From contig NZ_AP023175.1 in assembly GCF_013426895.1 (NCBI RefSeq), positions 558,001 through 622,000 on the forward strand: a DNA stretch of 64,000 nucleotides, in the 5' to 3' direction. A program made the position numbers and the translations under genes. Within the stretch, counting starts at the first letter, position 1. Each line of letters opens with the position of its first letter. This stretch comes from Paraburkholderia largidicola (GTDB lineage Bacteria; Pseudomonadota; Gammaproteobacteria; Burkholderiales; Burkholderiaceae). The notes under the pieces are model-generated. The model was not told where the DNA came from. It saw nothing but the letters and a program-made list of their open reading frames with translations, and made no database searches. Of the stretch, positions 49,899 to 63,189 are shown in pieces.

Positions 49899-50426
49899 TC
49901 AGAAGCCCTCGTTGCGCATGGTTGCCGCGACGCTGAAGTTGAAGAAGCCGCCGGGAAAGAACGAGCGGATCATCGGCGTGATCATCGGCCACGCGCAGTT
50001 GATCTGCAGCACGACGATGTCGCCGGGATTGCCGAACATGCTCGACGTATAGCTCGCGTCGCTCGCATAGCTCTGCGCCTTACCGCTGTTGACGGTGATC
50101 GCGTAGCTCGGATTGACGAGGGGATACAGGCCCATCGACTGATCCTTGATCTCCTGAATCACGGCGAGATAGCGCTGCGGATTCTTCTGGTTCGGGTCGA
50201 GCCCCGTCTGTCCCGTCACCGCGTAGCGCGCGCCTTCGCGCACCGCGTATTGCATGGTCAGGTTCACCCACAGCGCGACGCCGAGATCCATCACCATGCA
50301 CAGCAGAAAGAACAGTATCGGCGCGATAAACGCGAATTCGAGCGTCGCGACGCCAAGCTGCCTGCGGCGGCGTCCCAGGGACCGGCTCGCGCGGGTCACT
50401 CGCAGATGAGGACGCGTGGTTTTCAT
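49899..50426 (-). CDS. tadE: TadE-like pseudopilin 1
   Basis: 175 residues. RRRRQLGVATLEFAFIAPILFFLLCMVMDLGVALW is the TadE-type N-terminal motif, and the body has QYAVREGARYAVTGQ. The domain ends FFNFSVAATMRNEGF. Two consecutive tadE genes are typical of Tad loci in Burkholderia. Start at ATG 50426 after GAGAGACACG. Confidence 0.85.
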   Translation of the reverse strand: MKTTRPHLRVTRASRSLGRRRRQLGVATLEFAFIAPILFFLLCMVMDLGVALWVNLTMQYAVREGARYAVTGQTGLDPNQKNPQRYLAVIQEIKDQSMGLYPLVNPSYAITVNSGKAQSYASDASYTSSMFGNPGDIVVLQINCAWPMITPMIRSFFPGGFFNFSVAATMRNEGF

Positions 50427-50447
50427 CGTGTCTCTCCCGCAGTGGGT

Positions 50448-51425
50448 TCAGTGCATGCCGCCCATCGTCGGCAGCAGTTGCCGGACGACCTGCATCGCAG
50501 CGGGCCCGATCAGCACCATGATCAGCGTCGGAAAAATGCAGAACATCAGCGGAAAGAGCAGCTTGAGCGCGATCTTCGCGGCCAGTTCTTCGGCGCGCAG
50601 CCGGCGTTTGGTGCGCAGCGTGTCGATGAACACGCGCAGCGAATCGCCGACGCTCGTGCCGAAGCGGTCCGCCTGGATCAGCATCGACGTAAGCGTGTCG
50701 ATGTCCTCGACGCCCGTGCGCAGCGCGAGATTGCGCAACGCCTTGTCGCGGCCCGCACCCGCACGCAGTTCGAGCAGCACCAGTTCCAGCTCTTCCTTCA
50801 ATGCGTGGCTCTTCACGCCGATTTCCTCGGCGACGCGCTGCATCGCCGCGTCCAGACCGAGGCCCGCTTCGACGCAGACGGTCATGAGGTCGAGCGCATC
50901 GGGCAGGTCTTCGAACAGGCTGCGCCGACGCTGCTCGATCAGACGGTTCAGCACCACGTTCGGCAGATAGAAGCCGAGCGCCGCCATCGAGAGCGTCGCC
51001 ATCAGCAGGAATTTCTGCGCGTCGGGGCCAGCGAACAGCGTCATGCCGAGCAGCGCGAGCGCGGGCAGCACGAGCGCGAGCAGCGTCTTCGCGGCAAAGT
51101 AGATCGCCGGCGCGGTCTCGCTGCGCATGCCCGCATTCGCGAAGCGCCGACGCAGCGCGGACTTGTCCCAGTCGTCCTTCGGCAGCGACAGCTTCGCGAC
51201 CCGATGCGAGACTTTCGTGACCGTTTCCATCCACGCCGGGCTGTCGTCGGCGTCCATGCCGGGCGTACCTGCCGCGGCCCCCATCGCACCCGCCGCCGAC
51301 GACGCCGCAATACCGTCGATACGGCGCTTCAGCGGATCGGGACGCAGCAGCGACATCGCCTTCCACGCTGCGCCGAACACGATCACGAACATCGCGGCCA
51401 GCACGGCAAGCTGTTCGGTTTCCAT
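50448..51425 (-). CDS. tadC: Tad inner-membrane protein TadC
   Basis: 325 residues of the type II secretion GspF family. Helices appear at the N-terminus (LAVLAAMFVIVFGAAWKAM), at about 115-160 (FAAKTLLALVLPALALLGM and FLLMATLSMAALGFYL) and at the C-terminus (LLFPLMFCIFPTLIMVLIG). The cytoplasmic F-domain has LFEDLPDALDLMTVCVEAGLGLDAAM, the conserved GspF motif. TadC pairs with TadB, encoded just upstream, to form the membrane platform driven by TadA. Confidence 0.92.
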   Translation of the reverse strand: METEQLAVLAAMFVIVFGAAWKAMSLLRPDPLKRRIDGIAASSAAGAMGAAAGTPGMDADDSPAWMETVTKVSHRVAKLSLPKDDWDKSALRRRFANAGMRSETAPAIYFAAKTLLALVLPALALLGMTLFAGPDAQKFLLMATLSMAALGFYLPNVVLNRLIEQRRRSLFEDLPDALDLMTVCVEAGLGLDAAMQRVAEEIGVKSHALKEELELVLLELRAGAGRDKALRNLALRTGVEDIDTLTSMLIQADRFGTSVGDSLRVFIDTLRTKRRLRAEELAAKIALKLLFPLMFCIFPTLIMVLIGPAAMQVVRQLLPTMGGMH

Positions 51426-51474
51426 GATTTCCCCGTTTTGTTGCGTCGTTATCTGTTCGCGTCTTCGTCGGCTG

Positions 51475-52455
51475 CTACACGCGGATGCGCACCGTCCTGC
51501 GCAGCCACAGAATGCCGAAGAACATCATCGCCATGGCGATGCCCGCGATCTTCTGGCCCGTCGGGTCTTCCCAGAACACCTTGCAGTAGTCGGGGTTCAA
51601 CACCGACAACGCGGCGATCACGGCAAACGGCAGCAGCCCCAGAATCCACGCGGACATGCGACCTTCCGCCGACAGCACGCGCACCTTGCCGAGCAGCTTG
51701 AGCCGTTCGCGGATGATGCCGGCGATGTTGCCGAGAATCTCCGCGAGATTGCCGCCCGCCTCGCGCTGGATCAGCACGGCGATCACGAAGTAGCGCACGT
51801 CGTCGACGGGCACGCGGCTCACCAGATTCATCAGCGCGTCGCTCATCGACACGCCGTAGTTGATTTCATCGAAGGCGATGCGGAACTCGCCGCCAAGCGG
51901 ATTCGGCAACTCGTCGCCCACCATGCCGAGCGCGGCGGGAAACGAATGGCCGGCGCGCAGCGCGCGGGCGATCAGATCGGCGGCATCAGGCAGCTGGCGT
52001 TCGAGTTGCACGATGCGCTTCGCGCGCTTGCCGCGCAGATATACGAGCGGCAGCAGCGCGGCCGCGCCCGCCACCGCGAGCGCGATCGCAAACGGCAGAT
52101 GCATCGCGCTCACGCCGAACACGAGTCCCGCGAACCCGAATGCAACGGTATAGCCGACGAAGCGCCCGACCGACCACGTCAACCCCGACTGCTGCAGGTA
52201 CAGATCGAGCCGATGCACGCGCGGCATGCGCATCAACATGCGTGTGAAAGTCGGCGATTCGCTCAGCAGGCGCTGCTTGAGAATCGACATCTGTTCGCCG
52301 CTGACGTGGCCGCCTGCCGACATCGCGCGAATCCGCGCGTCCATGCGCTTGACGACCGGGCCGTGGTGGCTGTTCCAGTACAGGTACACGCCCTCGATCA
52401 GCAGCACGACCGCGACGAAGCCGAGAACGGCAAAAGCCAGCAGTGTCGTATCCAT
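51475..52455 (-). CDS. tadB: Tad inner-membrane protein TadB
   Basis: 326-residue GspF-like platform protein. Four hydrophobic helices (TTLLAFAVLGFVAVVLLIEGVYL at the start, GYTVAFGFAGLVFGVSA, IALAVAGAAALLPLVYL and a C-terminal ILGLLPFAVIAALSVL) flank the conserved F-domain QLPDAADLIARALRAGHSFPAAL. The ATG at 52455 is selected because the extra upstream codons are not family-like. It lies 28 nt after tadA. Confidence 0.92.
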   Translation of the reverse strand: MDTTLLAFAVLGFVAVVLLIEGVYLYWNSHHGPVVKRMDARIRAMSAGGHVSGEQMSILKQRLLSESPTFTRMLMRMPRVHRLDLYLQQSGLTWSVGRFVGYTVAFGFAGLVFGVSAMHLPFAIALAVAGAAALLPLVYLRGKRAKRIVQLERQLPDAADLIARALRAGHSFPAALGMVGDELPNPLGGEFRIAFDEINYGVSMSDALMNLVSRVPVDDVRYFVIAVLIQREAGGNLAEILGNIAGIIRERLKLLGKVRVLSAEGRMSAWILGLLPFAVIAALSVLNPDYCKVFWEDPTGQKIAGIAMAMMFFGILWLRRTVRIRV

Positions 52456-52483
52456 TTGCGCCTCCCTGGCGTCAGGCCCAGCG

Positions 52484-53860
52484 TCAGACTTCGAAACGCC
52501 GCGACGGATCGAACATCTGATCCGGCAACGCGAGGCCGAACGCGGCAAGCCGGTCGGCAAACTTGGGCCGCACGCCTGTCGCGCAGAAGTAGCCCTTGAC
52601 CGTGCCGTCTTCCGCCACGCCCGTGCGCTTGAACGTGAAGATTTCCTGCATGTTGATGATCTCGCCTTCCATCCCGGTGATTTCCGAAATGCTCATCAGC
52701 TTGCGGCGGCCGTCCGTCAGACGCGACGCCTGCACCACCACGGTGATGGCCGATGCGATCTGCTGACGCATCGCCTTGATCGGCATCGTCAGGCCCGCCA
52801 TGCCTACCATGTTTTCGAGGCGCGAGAGCGCATCGCGCGGCGTGTTCGCATGCAGCGTCGCCATCGATCCTTCGTGGCCCGTGTTCATCGCGTGCAGCAT
52901 GTCGAGCGCTTCCGCGCCGCGCACTTCGCCGAGCACGATGCGGTCGGGGCGCATCCGCAATGCGTTCTTCACCAGCGAGCGCTGCGAGATTTCGCCCTTG
53001 CCCTCGATGTTCGGCGGCCGCGTTTCCAGCCGCAGCACGTGTTCCTGGCGCAGTTGCAGTTCCGCGGCATCTTCGATCGTGACGATGCGTTCGTCGTTGG
53101 GAATGAAGCCCGACAGCAGGTTGAGCATCGTGGTCTTGCCGCTGCCCGTGCCGCCCGAGATCAGCACGTTGAGCTTGGCCTTGATGAGCGCTTCGAGCAG
53201 TTGCGCCATCGCGGGCGTGAAGGTCTGGTTCTTCACCATGTCGTCCACTTTCAGCGGATTCACGGCGAAGCGCCGGATCGACACGAGCGGCCCGTCGATC
53301 GCGGAAGGCGGAATGATCGCGTTCACGCGCGAGCCGTCGGGCAGGCGCGCGTCGACCATCGGCGTCGATTCGTCGATACGCCGGCCGACACGCGACACGA
53401 TGCGCTCGATGATCTTCATCAGATGCGCGTCGTCCAGGAACGTGATGTCGGTGTGTTCGAGCTTGCCGCGCCGTTCCACGTAGACGTGCCGCGGCGTGTT
53501 GACGAGTATGTCCGACACGGTCGGGTCGGCGAGCAGCGGTTCGAGCGGGCCGAGGCCGAACATTTCGTCGTGCACGTCCTGCGCGAGGCGGCGCCGCTCG
53601 AGTTCGTTCATCGGAATCTTGTCTTCATCGACGATGCGTTCGACCAGTTGCGCGAGTTCGCGTTTGGTCTGCTCGGGCGTAAGGCGTTGCAGCTTGTCGA
53701 GTTCGACACGGTCGATGATCTTCTCGTGCACGTTCATCTTCAGCTGTTGATACGCGCGGCGCGCGGCGATGCTTTCGGCGCTGTTGCCTGCGGTGGCCGC
53801 CGTCGCCGTGTCGAACGGCGTCGATCCGCTCTGCAGTTTCAGTTGATCGCGCAATGACAT
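52484..53860 (-). CDS. cpaF: Tad secretion ATPase CpaF/TadA
   Basis: 458-residue VirB11/PulE-type hexameric ATPase that powers pilus assembly. The N-terminal half has the CpaF-specific [19 protein letters not shown], and the nucleotide site has the Walker A motif [13 protein letters not shown] and the Asp box [20 protein letters not shown]. Walker B and His boxes are [19 protein letters not shown] and [12 protein letters not shown]. All catalytic elements are intact. It starts at the ATG 53860, which follows a GGGGAGCG ribosome-binding site, and lies 40 nt after cpaE. Confidence 0.96.
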
Positions 53861-53900: not shown

Positions 53901-55103
53901 TCAGAGATTGGTCTTCAGTTGCGGCACGTCGCGCGGCTTCTGCGCAAAGAGCCGCGCGAGGCCGCCCTTCTTCTCTTTCTGCGGCGCGGGCCACAACGTG
54001 TGCGCGAACGCGACGATGTCCTGCGCGAGCGCGCTGCCCTTGGCGATGCTCATGATGGGCAGCCCCTGATCCAGCGCCGCGCCCGCATGTTTGTCGTCGC
54101 GCGCGAAGCGATGCGCGACGCTCATGCCGAAGCTCTGCTCGAACGTCTGCAGGTTGACGGGCGCGTGCTTGTCGTACTGGTTCACGAGCACGCTGACCTT
54201 GCCCGTCGCGTAGCCGAGTTCGTGAAAGATGTCGAGCATGCGGCGGCCCGTGCGCAGATACAGCACGCTCTGGCGCACCAGCATGCAGATGCGGTCGCTC
54301 TGGTCGAGCACGTGAATCGCGAGCGGATTGATGCCGAGGCCGAGATCGACGATCACCGCGTCATACTGCGAGCGCGCGAGCGTCAGCACGCGTTCGAGCT
54401 GCGCGGGGCGCAACTCGCCTGCGCGGATCGGATCGCCCGCGCCCGCGAGCACGTCGAGGTTGTCGTTGACGTGCATCACGCAGGCGTCGAAGAACGCGTT
54501 GTCGAGCCGGTCGATTTGCCCACAGAGATCGGCGAGCGTCGCGGCGGGCGTCTGGTCCGACATCAGCAGGCTCGCGTCGGCGAACTGCTGGTTCGCATCG
54601 ACGAGCAGCACGCGCTTGCCGCGCTGCGTCGCGAGCGCATGCGCGAGATTCATCGCGATGAAACTCGTGCCCGTTCCGCCCTTGCACGACGTCAGCGCCA
54701 CGACGCGCCCTTCGCGGCGCGCGCCCGCCGTCTTCTTGCCCCACACGTGCGAAAGCTCGGCGGCGAACGCCTGCGCGTCGAGCGGCCACGGCAGCACATG
54801 GCGCACGCCTGCGCGCATGGCGGCCATCAGCAGGGCCGTCGAGGGCGCGGGCGTCACCAGCATGCAGCTCAGTTGCGGCACGTGCGCGACGGCCTCTTCG
54901 ATCGATGCCATGTCTTGCGGCTCGAGACCGACATCGTCGACGATCAGCAGATCCGCCGACTTGATCGACGCCGCGTGCGTGCGCAGATGCCGCACCGAGC
55001 CGTGCACGGCCCGCACGCGATGCGCGACGCCGCATCCTTCTAGCAGTTGCTCGATATGGCGCGAGCGGTCTGGGCCCGATGAGATGAGGAGGATGTCGAT
55101 CAT
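53901..55103 (-). CDS. cpaE: CpaE/TadZ-type MinD-like localisation ATPase
   Basis: 400 residues. An N-terminal receiver-like domain ([17 protein letters not shown]) is followed by a ParA/MinD ATPase with a deviant Walker [21 protein letters not shown], in which the signature Lys of KGGxGKT is retained but the P-loop Lys is replaced by Thr-Ser. [21 protein letters not shown] matches the TadZ family. TadZ proteins place the Tad machinery at the cell pole. The family often loses nucleotide hydrolysis. The start is ATG 55103 after GAGGAGG-like sequence. It is upstream of cpaF in the same operon. Confidence 0.9.
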
Positions 55104-55511: not shown

Positions 55512-57551
55512 TCACTGCGTGCGGCGCACGTCGTTGGCTTCGCGTGCTTCCTGGGTGCCGGACGGCGCGGCGGACTTTGCCTCGAGCGGCTGCGCGCTCA
55601 CGCTCGCCGTCTGCACGGCGGCCGTATGCACGGTTCCGTCCGTCGGTTCGGTGCGCGTGACGGGCGCCGTTCCGTCGCCGTCGCTGCTGCCCGTCGAGCG
55701 CGGCGTGGCGGGCGCACGGATCGCGTCGGCAGCGGGCTGGGTGCGCTCCGGTGCCGGTACGGGCGACGGCGCCGTCGTGCCTTGCGACGTGATGACGGGT
55801 GTCAGCACCACGGGCGCAGCCGTGCCTGTCGTGGCAATCGCACCGCCCTTCACCGGGATCGGCGACGGAATCGCGGCACCCGTCGACGGCGTCATCGGCT
55901 CGGCGGCAGGCTGCGGCTTCTTGCCTTCCATGTTGCCCGTGAAGAACACGCCCGCTTCCGTGACCTTGCCGAAGTGATCGGTCGGCAGCGGATAGTTCTG
56001 CGGCAGCGGCTTCGCGAGACGCGGCGTCACGACGAACACCAGTTCCGTCTTGTCCTCCTGGAAGTTCGTGCTGCGGAACAGCGCGCCGAGCACGGGCACT
56101 TCGCCGAGGCCCGGCAGGCCCTTGAGCGTGCCCGTCACGTTGCTCTTCATCAGGCCGCCGATCGCGAAGCTCTGGCCGTCGTAGACCTGCAGCGTGGTCG
56201 ACGCGCGGCGCGTCGTGATGAGGGGCAGCACGGCCGTCGTGCTGACCGTGCCCGCCGTCACGGCGACGCCCGTCGGCGACAGCTCCGACACTTCCGGCGA
56301 AACCTTCAGATTGATGCGGCCGTTATCGAGCACGGTCGGCGTGAAGGTCAAACCGACACCGAACGTTTCTTCCTGCAGGATGATCGTCGAGCCCGCTGCG
56401 CCGTTGCTTTGCGGCACCGGGATAAAGACCTTGCCGCCCGCGAGGAAGCTCGCTTCCTGGCCGCTGATCGCCATCAGGTTCGGCTCGGCAAGGACCTTGA
56501 CGAGCTGGTCGGTCTTCTGCGCGTCGAACGCGAAATTCAGCGGCTTGTTGTTCGTCTTCGAGCCGATCAGCGCACCCATGCCGCCCGACAGGAAATCGGC
56601 GAGCAGGCCGAAGCTCCAGCTGCCCGTGCCGCCCTGGATGTTGGCGGCCATGCCGAGCTGGTCGATCAGCGTCTTCGACACTTCGGCCACCTTCACTTCG
56701 AGCATCACCTGCTGCGGCGCGGCCACGTGCATCATGTTGACGATGCGTTCGTTGTTGCCATTGCCCGATGCGCCCGCCGTCTTCATCACGGCGGGAATCA
56801 TCGCGCCACCCTGCGCGCCTGCCCCGTTGGCGGGCGCGGCGACGGGCACGGGCGCGGTCTGGCGCGATACATAGGCGTGCGCCAGTTCGACGATGCGCTC
56901 GGCCTTCACCGAGTCGGACACGGTGCCCGTCAGCACGAGCGTGTCGGCGGCCGCCTTGACCTGCACGCCCGTCTCTTCGGGCATCAGGACGGCGAGCGTC
57001 TGCTGCAGGCCGCCGGGATCGGCGCCGACGGCGACGTCGATGATCGTGCACGAGCCGCTTCTGCCCTGCACGATCATGTTGGTCGTGCCGACATCGGTGC
57101 CGAGCAGATAGAGCGTTTGCGACGACACGAGCATCGCCTGCACGATCGACGGATTACCGACCGTGCGCGTCTTCACCGACTCGCGGATGTTGACCATCTG
57201 CGACTTGCCGACGGGAATCGTCACGCTCTGGTGATCGGCGATCGTGCCCGTGCAGTTCGGACCCCGGCCGCCCTGCGTCACGCCTGCCGCGGCCGCTGGC
57301 GCGGCGCCGCTCATGCCGATCGTCAGATGCACGGCGCCGCCGTTCGACGCCATGCTCATCGGCAGCGGCGCCTGGCCCGGCAGCCCGGCTTCCTGGCTCA
57401 CGGCCTGCGTAGCGGGCAGCGCCCACAATGCGGCGCCGATCAGACCGCAGGCGCTGGCCTGCGCGAGACGCGAGCGGCGCGCAAACGTTGCGGCTTGCGT
57501 CGTAGCGCGCTCAGGCCTTGCATGCGCGCGCTGATTCTCTGTGGCATTCAT
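55512..57551 (-). CDS. cpaC: Tad outer-membrane secretin CpaC/RcpA
   Basis: 679 residues. An N-terminal signal with hydrophobic core is followed by the BON-like and N-domain regions (QSVTIPVGKSQMVNIRESVKTRTVGNPSIVQAM, then SCTIIDVAVGADPGGLQQTL). The secretin beta domain starts at VMLEVKVAEVSKTLIDQLG and includes NKPLNFAFDAQK and the late motif IGGLMKSNVTGTLKGLPGLGEVPVLGALFRS, a general secretin signature. The last ~120 residues are a Pro/Thr/Ala-rich tail. It forms the outer-membrane gate for the Tad pilus. A TACGGGGGAAG ribosome-binding region precedes the ATG at 57551. Confidence 0.95.
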   Translation of the reverse strand: MNATENQRAHARPERATTQAATFARRSRLAQASACGLIGAALWALPATQAVSQEAGLPGQAPLPMSMASNGGAVHLTIGMSGAAPAAAAGVTQGGRGPNCTGTIADHQSVTIPVGKSQMVNIRESVKTRTVGNPSIVQAMLVSSQTLYLLGTDVGTTNMIVQGRSGSCTIIDVAVGADPGGLQQTLAVLMPEETGVQVKAAADTLVLTGTVSDSVKAERIVELAHAYVSRQTAPVPVAAPANGAGAQGGAMIPAVMKTAGASGNGNNERIVNMMHVAAPQQVMLEVKVAEVSKTLIDQLGMAANIQGGTGSWSFGLLADFLSGGMGALIGSKTNNKPLNFAFDAQKTDQLVKVLAEPNLMAISGQEASFLAGGKVFIPVPQSNGAAGSTIILQEETFGVGLTFTPTVLDNGRINLKVSPEVSELSPTGVAVTAGTVSTTAVLPLITTRRASTTLQVYDGQSFAIGGLMKSNVTGTLKGLPGLGEVPVLGALFRSTNFQEDKTELVFVVTPRLAKPLPQNYPLPTDHFGKVTEAGVFFTGNMEGKKPQPAAEPMTPSTGAAIPSPIPVKGGAIATTGTAAPVVLTPVITSQGTTAPSPVPAPERTQPAADAIRAPATPRSTGSSDGDGTAPVTRTEPTDGTVHTAAVQTASVSAQPLEAKSAAPSGTQEAREANDVRRTQ

Positions 57552-57649: not shown

Positions 57650-58489
57650 TCAAAAACATTCCTGTCTGGCCTGCGATCCGTCGATCACGCTCACGCAGTT
57701 CGACGGCGCCCGCGCGACGATCTTGCGCACCACCGGCTTCGGCGCGGGCGCTGCCGGCGCGGGCGGCGCGGCGACGGGAATCTTCAGCAACGACGCCTTG
57801 GTCGCGCCCGCCGTCGTTGCGTCCTGCGGATCGACCTGGTTGCGCAGCACGAGCGACAGCGAACCGATGCTGCGTGCGAGGTCGATCTTTTCGGCCTGCT
57901 CGGGCGTGACTTCGAGCGTCACGGCATCGACGACCTTCGGTTTGGTTTCGTCGCGGCCCGCTTCCTGCGCGACGGCCAGAACGAGAATCTTTTCGAGCAC
58001 GATCTTCGAGATGTTCTGGTCGCGTCCCTGCACCGCGCCGTCCTTGTTGTCCTTCTCGGTGTTGACGAGAATGTCGACGTAGTTGCCCGGCAGCGCGAAG
58101 CCCGCGACACCGATCACGTCGTTCACGCGCACCGTGATCGCGCGCTTGCCTTCGTTGATGACGGCCGACAGCCCGCCGAGCGTGCCCACGGGCGAGAGCT
58201 TCGCCTCCAGCACGGGTTCGCCGCGCGACAGGCTCGCCTTCAGCACGCGGCCTTCGAGCTTCTTCACATCGTTGAAGGTGCCGGGCGGCACGCTGCCGGC
58301 AGGCCAGTCGGATACCTTCAGCATGTCGGGCGAAACGCGCTGGCCGAGACTCATGTCGGCCGACGCGATCACCACCTTGGTCGTGGTCGTCGACGACTGC
58401 TGCACCATCCAGCGCGACGCGAACACCACGGCCGCAAGACCGGCCGCCGTCGCGACGACCAACATCACCAACGCGCGAGCGTTCTTCAT
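57650..58489 (-). CDS. cpaB: Tad assembly protein CpaB/RcpC
   Basis: 279 residues. The N-terminal transmembrane helix ARALVMLVVATAAGLAAVVFASRWM is followed by a SAF domain (TTTKVVIASADMSLGQRVSPDMLKVSDWP) and the family motif ITVRVNDVIGVAGFALPGNYVDILV. The C-terminal part has KVVDAVTLEVTPEQAEKIDLARSIGSLSLVLRN. It is a periplasmic partner of the secretin CpaC in the order expected of tad loci. Confidence 0.93.
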   Translation of the reverse strand: MKNARALVMLVVATAAGLAAVVFASRWMVQQSSTTTTKVVIASADMSLGQRVSPDMLKVSDWPAGSVPPGTFNDVKKLEGRVLKASLSRGEPVLEAKLSPVGTLGGLSAVINEGKRAITVRVNDVIGVAGFALPGNYVDILVNTEKDNKDGAVQGRDQNISKIVLEKILVLAVAQEAGRDETKPKVVDAVTLEVTPEQAEKIDLARSIGSLSLVLRNQVDPQDATTAGATKASLLKIPVAAPPAPAAPAPKPVVRKIVARAPSNCVSVIDGSQARQECF

Positions 58490-58566: not shown

Positions 58567-59016
58567 TCAGTCCATCAGATCGCGGTCGCGGTCCGGCGGG
58601 CTGCAGGCATCGTCTTCGTCCATGCTTGCGACGCGCTCTTGTGCGGGCAGCTGCAAGGCGGCGCGCAACGGCGCGGCTTGCTGCGCGCGGCGTTCCGCTT
58701 CGCGCTTTGCCACCCACCGCGCGACGACGAGTTCGTCGAGCAGCGCCTGCAGCGCGTATTCGCGTTCCAGCCGGCCCACTGGCGTGAGCAGCGCGCGCTG
58801 GCGCAGATAGATGGCGGGATCGGTCGTGAAGAGCAGTTCCGGCGCCGCGTCCACGTAGTACATTGCACACGCTGTGGACGCGGCCTCCGTGCGGTGTGGC
58901 CGGTTCGTGTTGCCGGCCTCGGTGCCGCTGCCGTTGTCCGCCGATGCGGGACGGCTCCCCCGTGTTGCCGATGTATAGGCATTGGCCGTCTTGCGGCCTG
59001 AATCGTTCGTCTTCAT
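58567..59016 (-). CDS. hypothetical Tad-locus protein, 149 aa
   Basis: Not recognised. It begins MKTNDSGRKTANAYTSATRG and has a Gly/Ser/Asn-rich N-terminus followed by a helical, Arg/Ala/Glu-rich half (LEREYALQALLDELVVARWVAKREAERR, then AQQAAPLRAALQLPAQERV). The end is acidic (DEDDACSPPDRDRDLMD). The ATG at 59016 follows GGGGGAAGTG, a ribosome-binding site that recurs in the tad genes, so I place it in the operon between cpaB and cpaA. It could be a tad-specific accessory protein. Confidence 0.6.
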   Translation of the reverse strand: MKTNDSGRKTANAYTSATRGSRPASADNGSGTEAGNTNRPHRTEAASTACAMYYVDAAPELLFTTDPAIYLRQRALLTPVGRLEREYALQALLDELVVARWVAKREAERRAQQAAPLRAALQLPAQERVASMDEDDACSPPDRDRDLMD

Positions 59017-59358
59017 CACTTCCCCCGTATCTGGCCGGCCTTCCTGCGAAGGCTCTTTCCAGGTGGACGACCCCGCGTCCACACCCCGTTTCTGGATCTG
59101 CTTCAAGCCTTTCTGCGAAGGCTCTGTGCTGCTGCTTCTCTTGTCACTGCCGCTGCGTTTTTTTTACTGGTTCTGGTGGGCTTCGGCTGTTGTCCGCCGT
59201 TCGCCTCTTGTTGTCGGTCGCTCATGCTGTTTGTCGTTATGCACTGCCGTCCTGCCCTGATTCACCTGCTGGCCCCGCCGCTGCTTCCCCGTAGAAATCC
59301 GTTTATTCGCTGCTTGCCCCGTACCGCGTGACTCATTGTTCTTTTGCTTGCCGCTTCG
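59017..59358. other. tad intergenic region with repeated elements
   Basis: 342 bp between the unknown gene and cpaA. Two copies of CTGCGAAGGCTCT (about 59044-59058 and 59112-59125) and two near copies of GCTGCTTxCCCCGTA (59280-59293 and 59309-59323, which resemble the ribosome-binding leader used by other tad genes) are present, but no credible coding frame. Confidence 0.6.
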
Positions 59359-59910
59359 TCACACGTTCACGAACAGCGACAGCATCGTGCCGATCGCGAT
59401 GGCTACGCCGTATGGCAGCGTGCCCGTCGTCGGCCGTCTGGTTCTCGTGTTGCCCGTACCCTGCTCGCTGCCGCCCGCTGCGCCGCCCGACGACACTGAC
59501 ACGTCGATCAGCACGGCAGCCATGTTGTGCAGCCCGGCGCGCACTTGCCGATGCCGCAGCATCTCCGCCAGCGCCCAGACGCCGCCAACCATGCACACCA
59601 TCAACGCAGCGTCGAAAGCGCCGCTCGCACCGCAAAAACATCCGACTGCCGCCATCAGCTTCACATCGCCCGCGCCCATCATCCGCAGCAGATAACCGGG
59701 TAGGAGCACCGCGCCGCCGACGAGCAGGCCGCCACCCCACAACTGCATCCCGTCGATGGCGCCATGCAGCGCGCACTGCACGACGAGTCCCGCGCCCAGA
59801 CCGATGACGACCAGCCAGTTCGGAATGCGCCGCGCATGGATGTCGTAGATCGCTGCCATCACGACCAGCGCCAACACGCAGGGACCCACCGGAAAAGGTA
59901 CGCCGTTCAT
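59359..59910 (-). CDS. cpaA: prepilin peptidase CpaA/TadV
   Basis: 183-residue inner-membrane aspartic peptidase of the A24 family. The first catalytic Asp lies in MAAIYDIHARRIPN and the second in MMGAGDVKLMAAVG (GxGD motif), with hydrophobic helices between. The C-terminal ~50 residues have a Ser/Gly-rich linker followed by a last helix (LPYGVAIAIGTMLSLFVNV). It cleaves and methylates Flp prepilins after the glycine of G-VSAIEY and probably the TadE pseudopilins. It follows the third flp gene. Confidence 0.93.
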   Translation of the reverse strand: MNGVPFPVGPCVLALVVMAAIYDIHARRIPNWLVVIGLGAGLVVQCALHGAIDGMQLWGGGLLVGGAVLLPGYLLRMMGAGDVKLMAAVGCFCGASGAFDAALMVCMVGGVWALAEMLRHRQVRAGLHNMAAVLIDVSVSSGGAAGGSEQGTGNTRTRRPTTGTLPYGVAIAIGTMLSLFVNV

Positions 59911-60034: not shown

Positions 60035-60214
60035 CTAACCCGCGGCCACGGCTGCGAGCTTGTCCACGATGGTGGTGAAGACGGTCCGCAGATTGGTGCC
60101 GAGCGTCGTGACCGTCGTGATGACTGCCACGGCGATCAAGCCAGCCAGCAGGCCGTATTCGATTGCCGACACGCCGTCTTCTTCGCGCAGGAATTGCTGG
60201 ATTGCATTCTTCAT
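60035..60214 (-). CDS. flp: Flp prepilin 3
   Basis: 59-residue prepilin: MKNAIQQFLREEDG is the leader, with cleavage after Gly14 and then VSAIEYGLLAGLIAVAV (the Flp signature G-x4-EY plus hydrophobic helix). It differs from the other two copies mainly at residue 6 (Gln instead of Thr or Asn) and near the end (TTIVDKLAAVAAG). TACGGGGGACTCC precedes the ATG. It is the third of three consecutive flp genes and lies closest to cpaA. Confidence 0.95.
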   Translation of the reverse strand: MKNAIQQFLREEDGVSAIEYGLLAGLIAVAVITTVTTLGTNLRTVFTTIVDKLAAVAAG

Positions 60215-60273
60215 GGAGTCCCCCGTAACCTGTTAGCCGACATTCGGCCGCCGTCCCGCCGTCCGTTAGTCCG

Positions 60274-60453
60274 TTAACCCGCTGCTACTGCGGCGAGCTT
60301 GTTCGAGATGGTGGTGAAAACGGTCCGCAGATTGGTGCCGAGCGTCGTGACCGTGGTGATGACTGCCACGGCGATCAAACCAGCCAGCAGGCCGTATTCG
60401 ATTGCCGACACGCCGTCTTCTTCGCGCAGAAATTGAGTGATTGCATTCTTCAT
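60274..60453 (-). CDS. flp: Flp prepilin 2
   Basis: 59-residue prepilin, MKNAITQFLREEDG leader and VSAIEYGLLAGLIAVAV core, ending in FTTISNKLAAVAAG. It differs from copy 1 by one residue (Thr6 instead of Asn6). The leader TACGGGGGACACC precedes the ATG at 60453. It lies between copies 1 and 3, in the same transcript. Together these genes form the major pilin supply for the Tad pilus, which serves in adhesion and biofilm formation in other bacteria. Confidence 0.95.
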   Translation of the reverse strand: MKNAITQFLREEDGVSAIEYGLLAGLIAVAVITTVTTLGTNLRTVFTTISNKLAAVAAG

Positions 60454-60503
60454 GGTGTCCCCCGTAGCCTGTTAGCCGAATTCAACCGCCGTCCGTTAGT
60501 CCG

Positions 60504-60683
60504 TTAACCCGCTGCTACTGCGGCGAGCTTGTTCGAGATGGTGGTGAAAACAGTCCTCAGGTTGGTGCCGAGCGTCGTGACCGTCGTGATGACTGCCACG
60601 GCGATCAAACCAGCCAGCAGGCCGTATTCGATTGCCGACACGCCGTCTTCTTCGCGCAGAAACTGATTGATTGCGTTCTTCAT
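60504..60683 (-). CDS. flp: Flp prepilin 1
   Basis: 59-residue prepilin and first gene of the tad operon: leader MKNAINQFLREEDG, core VSAIEYGLLAGLIAVAV, end FTTISNKLAAVAAG. The ATG at 60683 is selected because the upstream in-frame extension lacks the prepilin leader and because TACGGGGGAAATC, the tad-type ribosome-binding region, precedes it. A sigma-54 promoter candidate lies about 310 nt upstream, leaving a long untranslated leader. Confidence 0.95.
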   Translation of the reverse strand: MKNAINQFLREEDGVSAIEYGLLAGLIAVAVITTVTTLGTNLRTVFTTISNKLAAVAAG

Positions 60684-60990
60684 GATTTCCCCCGTAGGAA
60701 ATGAGATGTCACATAGCCGTCGCGCCCCATGCGCGTTGGCCAATCAAACCGCCCTTTCGGACGGATACAACCGGCAAGTGCCGCCGAAGGTGTCGTCATG
60801 GTCGCGAATGGCCGTACACCGTACGAACCATTCGCGCCACTTTCTACCGACGTCCGCCCCCCATTGGCTCCGCCGCCCCCACAGTCGCATGTGGCAAACC
60901 CCGGCCGCGACTGCGAAGTTCTGTGCTGCTGTCGGAGACTTCCTTTGGCCTTGCTTTCCGGCAGCAGCGATTTCGTCGTGACTGCCATAT

Positions 60991-61006
60991 CGCAACGGGT
61001 ATGCCA
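60991..61006 (-). promoter_or_regulatory. sigma-54 promoter (-24/-12) for the flp-tad operon
   Basis: Minus-strand sequence TGGCATACCCGTTGCG has GG and GC exactly 10 nt apart, TGGCA at -24 and TTGC at -12, against the consensus TGGCAC-N5-TTGC. Transcription would start near 60980, giving a ~300-nt leader before flp1. A sigma-54 activator gene lies immediately to the right. Confidence 0.7.
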
Positions 61007-61169
61007 TGTGCCCGCAAACCCTTGTCGCGCCGTGATCGGGCTGGCGCGGCACGTGGTTTTTCAGGGGCTGGCGGTTCGCGATGTTGCGAACCCGTAACGT
61101 GATTTCGAAGCGCGGCGCGCATGTGCGCCAGGCCACATGGCCAACCGAACACGGTCAAAGATGCGACGA

Positions 61170-61189
61170 ATCGGGCCGCAAAGCCCGAT
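61170..61189. promoter_or_regulatory. inverted repeat, possible enhancer site 1
   Basis: ATCGGGC (61170-61176) and GCCCGAT (61183-61189) form a perfect 7-bp inverted repeat with a 6-bp spacer, about 165-185 bp upstream of the sigma-54 element. Confidence 0.45.
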
Positions 61190-61196
61190 GGCAATG

Positions 61197-61230
61197 GCTT
61201 CCCGGTCAGAACTACCGGTCACCGGGAAGC
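61197..61230. promoter_or_regulatory. inverted repeat, possible enhancer site 2
   Basis: GCTTCCCGGT (61197-61206) and ACCGGGAAGC (61221-61230) form a perfect 10-bp inverted repeat with a 14-bp spacer that itself contains ACCGGT. It is the strongest dyad in the region, 190-225 bp upstream of the sigma-54 element. Confidence 0.5.
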
Positions 61231-61276
61231 ACTGATCGGTCTGAAGAACCGATTGCCGGATGTGTCGCAGAGTTGA

Positions 61277-61331
61277 GACGGCGCGAAAAGCGCCGCTGCG
61301 AGCGCGGCGCGGCCTTGTGGCGCAAGGCGCC
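61277..61331. promoter_or_regulatory. overlapping hairpins, possible enhancer/structured RNA
   Basis: Three perfect hairpins lie here: CGGCGC-GAAAA-GCGCCG (61277-61293), GCGCCGC-N7-GCGGCGC (61288-61308) and GTGGCGC-AAG-GCGCCAC (61315-61331). The first two share bases and exclude each other. Confidence 0.35.
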
Positions 61332-61695
61332 ACGTACGAGCCCCCACGTGCACGCGCACGCAAATGCTCCGGGTCGCAAACGATTCAAGCGCAGGTAGAA
61401 ATTGCAGAAGGGTGAATCTGCATCCTGATTTACGCTTATATAAAGCCCCTACCCATTCATTTATCTTTGTTTTTACTGTGCATTTCATGCGACGATAACT
61501 TCGTGTTGCGAAGCATGTGCGCGGCGCAAAGGCATCCCGACATTGCGGCATTCATGACCCGCATGTAGAAGAACACGAAAAACGCTCAGGTTCGCGCAGG
61601 CGACCCTCAAAAGACCACATCGTTTTGCCGTAGTACAAGGATCACTGACCTTGTCGCGCGATGCGCAAGGGCGACGTCCACTACCGGGGGGTAAC

Positions 61696-63189
61696 ATGAG
61701 TTCCACTTCCACAACGGGCGCTTCAGACCGCACTGTGCTCTGTGTGGCATCCACGCCCGACGAAGCGCTCGCAGCCTTCCTCGGCGCGGCGGGATGGCAG
61801 GTCGTGCACGCCAGAAACACGGCCGCTGCGGAAAAGCTGCTCGATCGCGGCGACATCAAGGTCGGCCTTGTCACGCTGCCCGACGACGTCACGCAGCAGC
61901 AGCTCTCGGCGCTCGAAGCCTGCATGCGCCACGGTGAGGCAAACTGGATCGCGCAGATCGCGCCCGGCCACGCCACCGACGATCTCACCAGCCGCTTCAT
62001 CCTCGACTACTGCTTCGACTTCGTCACCGCGCCGTGCATGAACGACCGGCTGATCTTCGCGCTCGGCCACGCGCACGGCCTGTCGAATCTGCGCCGTGCG
62101 AGCTTCCGGCCACAGCCGTCGCTGGGCGCGCACGGCATGGTCGGCCATTGCGAGCCGATGCAAAAGCTGTATCGCCGGATCGACAAATGCGCGCAGACGG
62201 ACGCGCCCGTGTTCATCGCGGGCGAGTCGGGCACGGGCAAGGAACTGACGGCACGCGCGGTGCACGACGGCTCGGCGCGCGCGCAGCAGGCGTTCGTCGC
62301 GATCAATTGCGCGGCGATTCCGCCTACCCTGTTGCAAGCCGAACTGTTCGGCCATGAGCGCGGCGCGTTCACGGGCGCGCTGCAACGCAAGATCGGCCGG
62401 ATCGAGCATGCGCACGGCGGTACGTTGTTCCTCGACGAAATCGGCGATATGCCGCACGAATGCCAGGCCGTGCTGCTGCGCTTCCTGCAGGAAGGCACGA
62501 TCGAGCGCCTGGGCGGCAACGCCTCCGTCAAGGTCGACGTGCGCGTGATCTCGGCGACGCACGTGAATCTCGAAGCCGCCGTGAAGGACGGACGCTTCCG
62601 CGCCGACCTGTATCACCGGCTGTGCGTGCTGCGGCTCGATGAGCCGCCGCTGCGCGAGCGCGGCAGCGACATCCGCCTGCTCGCCGACTACGCGCTCAGC
62701 ATGTATCGGCAGGACGGCACGCATAAGATTCGCGGCTTTTCCAGCGGCGCGGTAGTGTCGATGTCGAACTACGACTGGCCCGGCAACGTGCGCGAGCTGA
62801 TCAACTGCGTGCGGCGGGCCGTCGTGATGACGGAAGGACGCTTCATTACGGAAACCGATCTCGGCTTGCCGGAAGTGTCCGGCGTGCGCGCAAAGACGCT
62901 TGCCGAAATCCGCACCCAGGCGGAAATCGAGGCGATCGAAGAAGCGCTGCGGCGGCACGGGCACAACCTGTCGGGCGCGGCGGCCGATCTCGGCGTGTCG
63001 CGCGCCACGCTCTACCGGCTGATGAACGCAAACCGGATGAACCCGGATGCGAACGCGATGCGCTCGATGCGCCGTGCCAGCGGCGAAGGCCGCACCGATG
63101 GCGGCACGGACGGCAGCTCGGACGACGGCGACGACAGCGATTCGGGCTCGCACAGGGCGCGCGCTGTCGCGGCGGTATCGGTGGGCTGA
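61696..63189 (+). CDS. sigma-54 enhancer-binding regulator with degenerate receiver (VpsR-like)
   Basis: 497 residues. The N-terminal ~130 residues resemble a receiver but lack its phospho-acceptor Asp and terminal Lys (KVGLVTLPDD and FDFVTAPCMND where DxxxP and K-P would be). A full AAA+ sigma-54 activation domain follows: Walker A GESGTGKE (176-183), GAFTGA (223-228, sigma-54 contact), Walker B LFLDEIGD (244-251) and later arginine fingers. A Fis-type helix-turn-helix ends the protein (GHNLSGAAADLGVSRATLYRLM), then a Gly/Asp/Ser-rich tail. The ATG at 61696 has GGGGGGTAAC upstream. It faces away from the tad operon and is a natural activator of its sigma-54 promoter. Confidence 0.93.
   Translation: MSSTSTTGASDRTVLCVASTPDEALAAFLGAAGWQVVHARNTAAAEKLLDRGDIKVGLVTLPDDVTQQQLSALEACMRHGEANWIAQIAPGHATDDLTSRFILDYCFDFVTAPCMNDRLIFALGHAHGLSNLRRASFRPQPSLGAHGMVGHCEPMQKLYRRIDKCAQTDAPVFIAGESGTGKELTARAVHDGSARAQQAFVAINCAAIPPTLLQAELFGHERGAFTGALQRKIGRIEHAHGGTLFLDEIGDMPHECQAVLLRFLQEGTIERLGGNASVKVDVRVISATHVNLEAAVKDGRFRADLYHRLCVLRLDEPPLRERGSDIRLLADYALSMYRQDGTHKIRGFSSGAVVSMSNYDWPGNVRELINCVRRAVVMTEGRFITETDLGLPEVSGVRAKTLAEIRTQAEIEAIEEALRRHGHNLSGAAADLGVSRATLYRLMNANRMNPDANAMRSMRRASGEGRTDGGTDGSSDDGDDSDSGSHRARAVAAVSVG

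Follow-up and report, generated by a model that had tools for sequence, protein, structure and literature searches.

Is the Tad pilus operon of Paraburkholderia largidicola controlled by RpoN together with an activator that is encoded right next to it? This question is raised by the window, i.e. the whole analysed stretch of 64,000 nucleotides, in which a sigma54-type promoter sequence was proposed between the flp-tad genes and the gene of a sigma54 activator. The window belongs to a genome of 9.47 Mb in 5 contigs, and the features that bear on the question are collected in Table 1.

Results and discussion

Conservation of the sigma54-type promoter

The sequence TGGCATACCCGTTGC was located on the minus strand at 61006-60992, and the 16-mer of the original prediction runs one position further to 60991. 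The elements that had been claimed for it, namely the GG-N10-GC spacing, TGGCA and TTGC, are all exact in TGGCATACCCGTTGC, and its claimed orientation toward the pilus genes agrees with the three Flp ORFs and the tad cluster located downstream on the same strand. A scan for sigma70-like promoters gave no match at 60600-61720. Since the word itself is common in the genome (60 matches of TGGCAYN5TTGC in 9.47 Mb compared to 25 for the reversed control), a lone match to the motif has to be regarded as weak evidence. Within the window, a search allowing up to two mismatches resulted in 102 matches compared to 126 in shuffles, hence no excess.

As a check, a search for the same GG-N10-GC element at tad loci of other Burkholderiales had been suggested. 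A comparable search was performed on 72 loci: besides the window, it covered 71 loci of Burkholderiaceae (L015-L085 out of 80) at which relatives of the activator are encoded. In 67 of these a comparable site was found on the opposite strand, 600-1150 bp upstream of the activator, while it was missing in L023, L070, L072, L074 and L076. Furthermore, GG-N10-GC precedes all 114 copies of the RNA described below, which were located by a model without the promoter. A regular expression detected the element in 112 of the 114 copies, 123-194 nt ahead of the 5' arm of helix P4, and the two copies that it missed (L137 and L138) carry TGGCACAGCGCGTGC with a slightly weaker -12 element. The site is present also at loci without flp: at many Paraburkholderia loci, it is followed within 8 kb either by an orphan CpaE-like gene or by no sought tad gene at all. 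Since the site is kept in place across the activator loci and before every RNA copy, it does not appear to be a product of chance. A conserved sigma54-type promoter, with its -24 and -12 cores kept in place, is supported by this comparison, and so is its pairing with the activator. By matches to the DNA-binding family, the window's genome contains two sigma54 genes (G000:C1:403671-404138 and C2:663149-663619).

Table 1. Features of the window around the predicted promoter, with strand and basis of the assignment.
Feature	Position	Strand	Basis or remark
Enhancer-binding protein: VpsR domain, sigma54-interaction AAA+ domain with GAFTGA, Fis-type HTH	61696..63189	+	Pfam, motifs
Dyad CGTCTCAACTCTGCGACA, likely UAS of the activator	61263..61280	-	274 bp upstream of promoter; predicted binding
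Sigma54-type promoter TGGCATACCCGTTGC (-24/-12)	60992..61006	-	Sequence and conservation; predicted start near 60980
Predicted untranslated leader before flp1, ~297 nt	60684..60980	-	Sequence; predicted start
Hairpin P1	60925..60968	-	Fold
RNA core (P2, P4 remnant, P3)	60766..60920	-	Model R1 88.1 bits, R2 98.4 bits
Hairpin P2, apical part GGCCGGGG	60877..60918	-	Fold, covariation
Hairpin P3	60801..60837	-	Fold, covariation
Small hairpin CCGTCC-GAAA-GGGCGG, then TTTGATT	60749..60764	-	Weak terminator-like
flp1 pilin gene	60504..60683	-	PF04964; ATG 60683-60681
flp2 pilin gene	60274..60453	-	ORF
flp3 pilin gene	60035..60214	-	ORF
TACGGGGG-N5-ATG start regions	60681-60696, 60451-60466, 60212-60227, 59014-59029		flp1, flp2, flp3, ATG 59016
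cpaA-like prepilin peptidase	59359..59910	-	Pfam
cpaB/rcpC	57650..58489	-	Pfam
cpaC secretin	55512..57551	-	Pfam
cpaE/tadZ-like ATPase	53901..55103	-	Pfam
cpaF/tadA ATPase	52484..53860	-	Pfam
tadB 51475-52560, tadC 50448-51425, tadE 49899-50426	49899..52560	-	Pfam

The activator and its likely enhancer

The neighbouring gene had been described as an intact sigma54 activator with GAFTGA, and this description was confirmed: the frame is open and encodes both GESGTGKE and GERGAFTGA. With an AAA+ sigma54-interaction domain, the GAFTGA motif and a Fis-type HTH, the protein has the features of an enhancer-binding protein; the domain family PF00158 showed 30 matches in the window's genome, some of them weak. 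The N-terminal VpsR domain (PF20161) reached 95.7 bits at a curated cut-off of 23.7, VpsR was the best PDB match for the N-terminal 137 residues (E 8.5e-9), and the nearest named relatives belong to Paraburkholderia or Burkholderia species. As judged from its sequence, the activator is VpsR/BerB-like, and c-di-GMP is possibly its signal, which is suggested by the VpsR-type domain only. Two more activators with a VpsR domain are encoded about 7 kb apart in the same genome (G000:C1:968805-969143 and C1:976208-976564) and are possible relatives of BerB.

The activator and the RNA occur together. An activator match of 1e-150 or better was found in 80 of the 82 genomes carrying the RNA compared to 17 of the 62 genomes without it (Fisher 1e-20, with kinship ignored), and 9 of these 17 show at least 70% identity. 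Concerning the two exceptions, the RNA copy of G242 still adjoins an activator match by tblastn, and the assembly of G471 comprises 4.3 Mb and is split into 150 contigs. In another genome, G438, which has a stand-alone RNA copy (L203), the activator frame on a different contig (G438:C114:61553-63037) contains two stop codons.

From words common to the upstream regions of three genomic contexts, an 18-bp dyad, TGTCTCA-N4-TGCGACA, was derived, which in most copies is located about 272 bp upstream of GG-N10-GC. Within 500 bp upstream, at least 10 of its 12 positions were matched in 114 of 114 copies compared to 1.6% of mononucleotide shuffles, and at least 11 in 87 of 114 compared to 0.04%; these shuffles are a lenient control, since the dyad was derived from the same, related sequences on which it was counted. 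The spacing between dyad and promoter amounts to 268-275 bp in 84 of the 114 copies and lies mostly near 282, 292, 303, 314 and 324 bp in the others. Taken as 24 distinct values, the spacings show a periodicity close to 10.5 bp, with an R of 0.55 that is reached in about 1 of 5000 random sets, the copies being related to each other. The dyad is likely the enhancer to which the activator is predicted to bind.

The dyad was also found 241-302 bp upstream in L021, L022, L024, L067, L069, L071, L073 and L075, the leaders of which are not recognised by the RNA model R1, so that control of the promoter possibly predates the RNA. In its strict form, the dyad occurs at three places in the window's genome including this one (reversed control two). 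Since these places are so few, the activator may serve only a small number of promoters.

Structure and covariation of the leader RNA

An untranslated leader of 300 nt had been expected in front of flp1. With the start placed at the usual 12 nt past the GC, the predicted leader comprises about 297 nt, and in this respect the expectation agrees with our data; it does not account for the fact that the leader is no plain untranslated region, the covariation pointing to a conserved structured RNA. Behind the site the leaders are conserved, and compensatory changes are visible in the alignment. A coding function of the leader was considered as well; open frames exist in it, but the leaders of relatives differ by many short indels.

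Three sets of sequences were aligned. The first (A1) comprised 28 of the 67 site-bearing loci, 15 loci being excluded as divergent or ill-aligned and the others as at least 88% alike. For the second (A2), 22 of these 28 sequences were aligned with MAFFT, and the structure was taken from folds of single relatives with one unpaired column pair trimmed. In A2, 90.8% of the cells were paired, and changes on both sides were found in 19 of the 42 pairs, compared to 8.8 in shuffles (sd 2.0, none of 500 as high) and 6-12 with slid partners. The third set (A3), for which 65 of 66 chosen sources matched, showed changes on both sides in 28 of 42 pairs compared to 18.5 in shuffles (none of 500 as high) and 10-15 with slid partners, in an alignment that was fitted to the structure by the model. 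Most of the covariation was found in P2 and P3. The changes in P4, which is poor in the window, were mainly one-sided, with both sides changed in 0 of 9 pairs for the 22 sequences and in 2 of 9 for the 65 copies. Compared to shuffles, the folds of single sequences were modest, with z of -2.08 for the window, -1.72 for L133, -2.05 for L129 and -4.06 for L032. Nonetheless, the covariation above both shuffled and slid controls strongly indicates that the leader represents a structured RNA family. In Rfam 15, no credible match was obtained for 1.1 kb of the window or for eight loci, and two weak matches in the window region were far below the gathering scores.

A function as a sponge for CsrA/RsmA was considered and rejected, since the genome gave no CsrA match and GGA occurs 5.0 times per RNA compared to 5.7 times after shuffling. 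Upstream of the activator in L021, L022, L024 and L042, a variant leader was observed, which has a TGGCAC-N5-TCGC promoter and repeated GCGGGGAAG/GACGGGGCC words. This variant is not recognised by model R1, and in L021, L022 and L024 it is followed by a CpaB-like gene.

Genomic contexts of the RNA

Using model R2, 114 copies were found in 82 of the 144 genomes of the genus, with a maximum of two per genome. The window's genome gave no second copy, the next best match showing an E of 0.7. With R1 and stricter filters, a sample of 398 genomes of the family gave 28 positive ones, all within one of 25 genera, and thus no RNA was found outside the genus in this sample. The contexts of the 114 copies were assigned from the genes in 1.5-4 kb flanks. 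Divergent from the activator are 79 copies, including 51 with cpaE, 13 with flp or cpaA and 15 with neither. A further 15 copies precede flp or cpaA without the activator, one adjoins cpaE only, and for 19 no sought gene was found. Examples are P. xenovorans LB400 (L029) with an activator-linked copy, and P. humisilvae (L019) and P. rhizosphaerae (L020), in which flp adjoins the activator. In a quick tree (FastTree), the flp-only and stand-alone copies grouped together in a clade of 34 with a support of 1.0. The stand-alone copies formed a clade of 19 (support 0.98), and the 13 copies with activator and flp a clade of 14 (support 0.98) together with the activator-only copy L214.

Since 66 of the 114 copies are located by the activator without flp, and 19 have no sought gene, the output they share is not the pilus. 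The original prediction of pilus control by RpoN and the local activator is supported in part: the conserved promoter, the dyad and an activator in 80 of 82 genomes are consistent with it as far as sequence comparison reaches. Control of flp by the activator predicts flp- or cpaA-linked copies that keep promoter, dyad and leader away from the activator, and exactly this was seen in all 15 of them.

Many activator-linked copies are followed by a small ORF, which comprises about 95 aa and has no Pfam match; in many loci, an orphan CpaE-like gene comes next (L029 6364-6831 and 5111-6340; L043 6472-6894). The idea that this ORF is a relic of the tad ORF 58567-59016 was dropped, as no significant similarity was found (E 0.34 and 0.15). 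In L132 and L134, a long ORF downstream of the stand-alone RNA looks, by eye, like a sterol-desaturase-type membrane protein.

The 3' end of the RNA and possible explanations

A U-tract of at least five follows the best-pairing 3' arm of P4 in 47 of the 66 activator-linked copies without flp, in 18 of the 20 stand-alone or cpaE-only copies and in 15 of the 15 flp-only copies. It was found in none of the 13 copies with activator and flp, which are of the window's type, compared to 80 of the 101 other copies (Fisher 2e-8, the 13 representing one lineage). Since the U-tract is missing in this type, the RNA of the window probably continues into flp, as had been supposed, while the RNA of most relatives outside the window's clade would stop earlier. 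The small hairpin ahead of flp1 (Table 1) is no better than chance, as the scan for terminator-like elements resulted in 2 compared to 1.5 expected.

Altogether, we consider the following explanation probable as a whole. The VpsR/BerB-type protein would bind to the dyad and, via DNA looping, activate sigma54 RNA polymerase at the promoter, with a transcript that would start near 60980 and open with the structured RNA of P1, P2 and P3. In most relatives outside the clade, the long-range helix P4 and the U-tract would act as an intrinsic terminator, so that the RNA would end after about 220-250 nt. This end has decayed in the window's clade, where transcription would probably enter flp1-3 and the tad operon. 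The RNA would represent a sigma54-driven sRNA or leader, possibly controlled by c-di-GMP, and might act in trans as well. Comparison of sequences establishes the promoter, the dyad and its phasing, the RNA fold, the three genomic contexts and the loss of the terminator-like end. Counted against the explanation are the 15 flp-linked copies, which keep P4 although flp sits past it, as well as the modest single folds, the mainly one-sided changes in P4 and the counting of the dyad on its own source sequences.

A possible, albeit rather unlikely, alternative is that the RNA acts in cis only, as an attenuator. P4 and the U-tract would then form a terminator governed by a ligand or a protein, and this gate, lost in the window's clade, would set the level of transcription into flp or into the small ORF and cpaE. 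The U-tract in every flp-linked copy away from the activator, where flp begins about 215 nt past the 5' arm of P4, fits well to such a gate. It is difficult to reconcile with the 19 copies that have no sought gene behind them, which yet form one clade (0.98), and with the frequent U-tract in the stand-alone group, one member of which is the cpaE-only copy.

Appreciably more doubtful is the view that the leader behind the sigma54 promoter is simply passive and that its structure has no regulatory role beyond stability; the absence of the terminator-like end in the window agrees with this, but the covariation and the retention of the RNA without flp argue against it. It is very improbable that the inverted repeats function at the DNA level, as binding sites for a protein downstream of the promoter, rather than as RNA. 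Although P3 is a long inverted repeat and some promoters do have downstream regulator binding, the loops of P2 and P4 vary in length, the pairs co-vary singly, and a U-tract is located at the 3' end. Least credible of all is a chance sigma54-like word with flp driven by another promoter, since the word, common as it is in the genome by itself, stands in place before every RNA copy together with a phased dyad.

Start regions of the flp genes

The three flp genes at 60035-60683 are arranged in tandem and are nearly identical. The sequence TACGGGGG-N5-ATG occurs six times in the whole genome and not at all in the reversed control. Four of the six lie within the tad cluster, three of them at flp1, flp2 and flp3 and the fourth at the ATG at 59016, where a frame begins that extends to 58567 and has no match in Pfam. 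For the 28 flp-linked copies, a CGGGG start region was found before 21 of the 21 flp starts located, and a CGGGG-N4-9-ATGA word occurs downstream in 54 of the 66 activator-linked copies without flp. The RNA itself contains CGGGG 2.7 times compared to 0.9 times in dinucleotide shuffles (118 leaders, four of the divergent L021 type besides the 114 copies, with homologous positions counted repeatedly). The flp genes have unusual UACGGGGG start regions, to which the CGGGG loops exposed in the RNA are similar. A shared RNA-binding partner for the CGGGG regions is a guess, and CsrA, for which the genome gave no match, is not this partner. Tentatively, and with more doubt than confidence, a new Paraburkholderia RNA family could be envisaged that is made only under a c-di-GMP-responsive sigma54 activator and serves as stand-alone sRNA and as leader of the pilus operon. 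Through its CGGGG loops, this RNA may titrate a factor that controls translation from the similar UACGGGGG starts of flp, and thereby couple pilus output to the switch.

Comparison with known systems

In LuxO-Qrr, CbrB-CrcZ and GlrR-GlmY, an enhancer-binding protein drives a short terminated sRNA, and qrr1 adjoins luxO. In contrast to these, the RNA described here has no credible Rfam match and also leads a pilus operon.

The arrangement further resembles BerB-RpoN-berA of Burkholderia cenocepacia. According to the accessible part of the report, BerB is a VpsR/FleQ-like enhancer-binding protein with GAFTGA and biofilm functions, which needs RpoN and binds c-di-GMP with a KD of ~3 uM (PMC5552954). 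Its targets given there are berA and exopolysaccharide genes. BerB is said to have no N-terminal sensory domain, whereas the window's protein clearly matches the VpsR domain, and the same part of the report describes no leader RNA (PMC5552954). VpsR of Vibrio cholerae belongs to the same N-terminal domain family but, according to this source, acts without RpoN (PMC5552954), while the window's activator adjoins a sigma54-type promoter. The cluster AK34_1641-1653 of Burkholderia dolosa is likewise a tad cluster, with a gene for a CheY-like response regulator among its regulated genes; in the accessible part of the report, neither a sigma54 promoter nor a structured leader is described for it (PMC5234846).

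Counted against the proposed control were two P. phymatum rpoN papers, the main text of which names neither flp nor pili, and Pseudomonas fluorescens PF07, for which the table lists flp/tad genes without rpoN effect (PMC9207406). In the open-licence part of PubMed Central, covered mostly by titles and abstracts, no description of a Paraburkholderia flp operon with a sigma54 promoter or with a structured leader was found.

Conclusions

The cassette proposed here combines an activator of the VpsR type with a phased enhancer, a sigma54-type promoter and a structured RNA, and this RNA occurs either alone or as a pilus leader. What is new about the cassette is the leader: this structured RNA has no credible match in Rfam and is often located behind the same promoter without pilus genes. 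For the genus, a testable link would result between a VpsR-type activator, perhaps responding to c-di-GMP, RpoN and Tad pili. Few target promoters, if this holds true, would keep the genetics simple, and a natural comparison is already built in, since some relatives have the terminator-like end and others lack it, and the same holds for flp.
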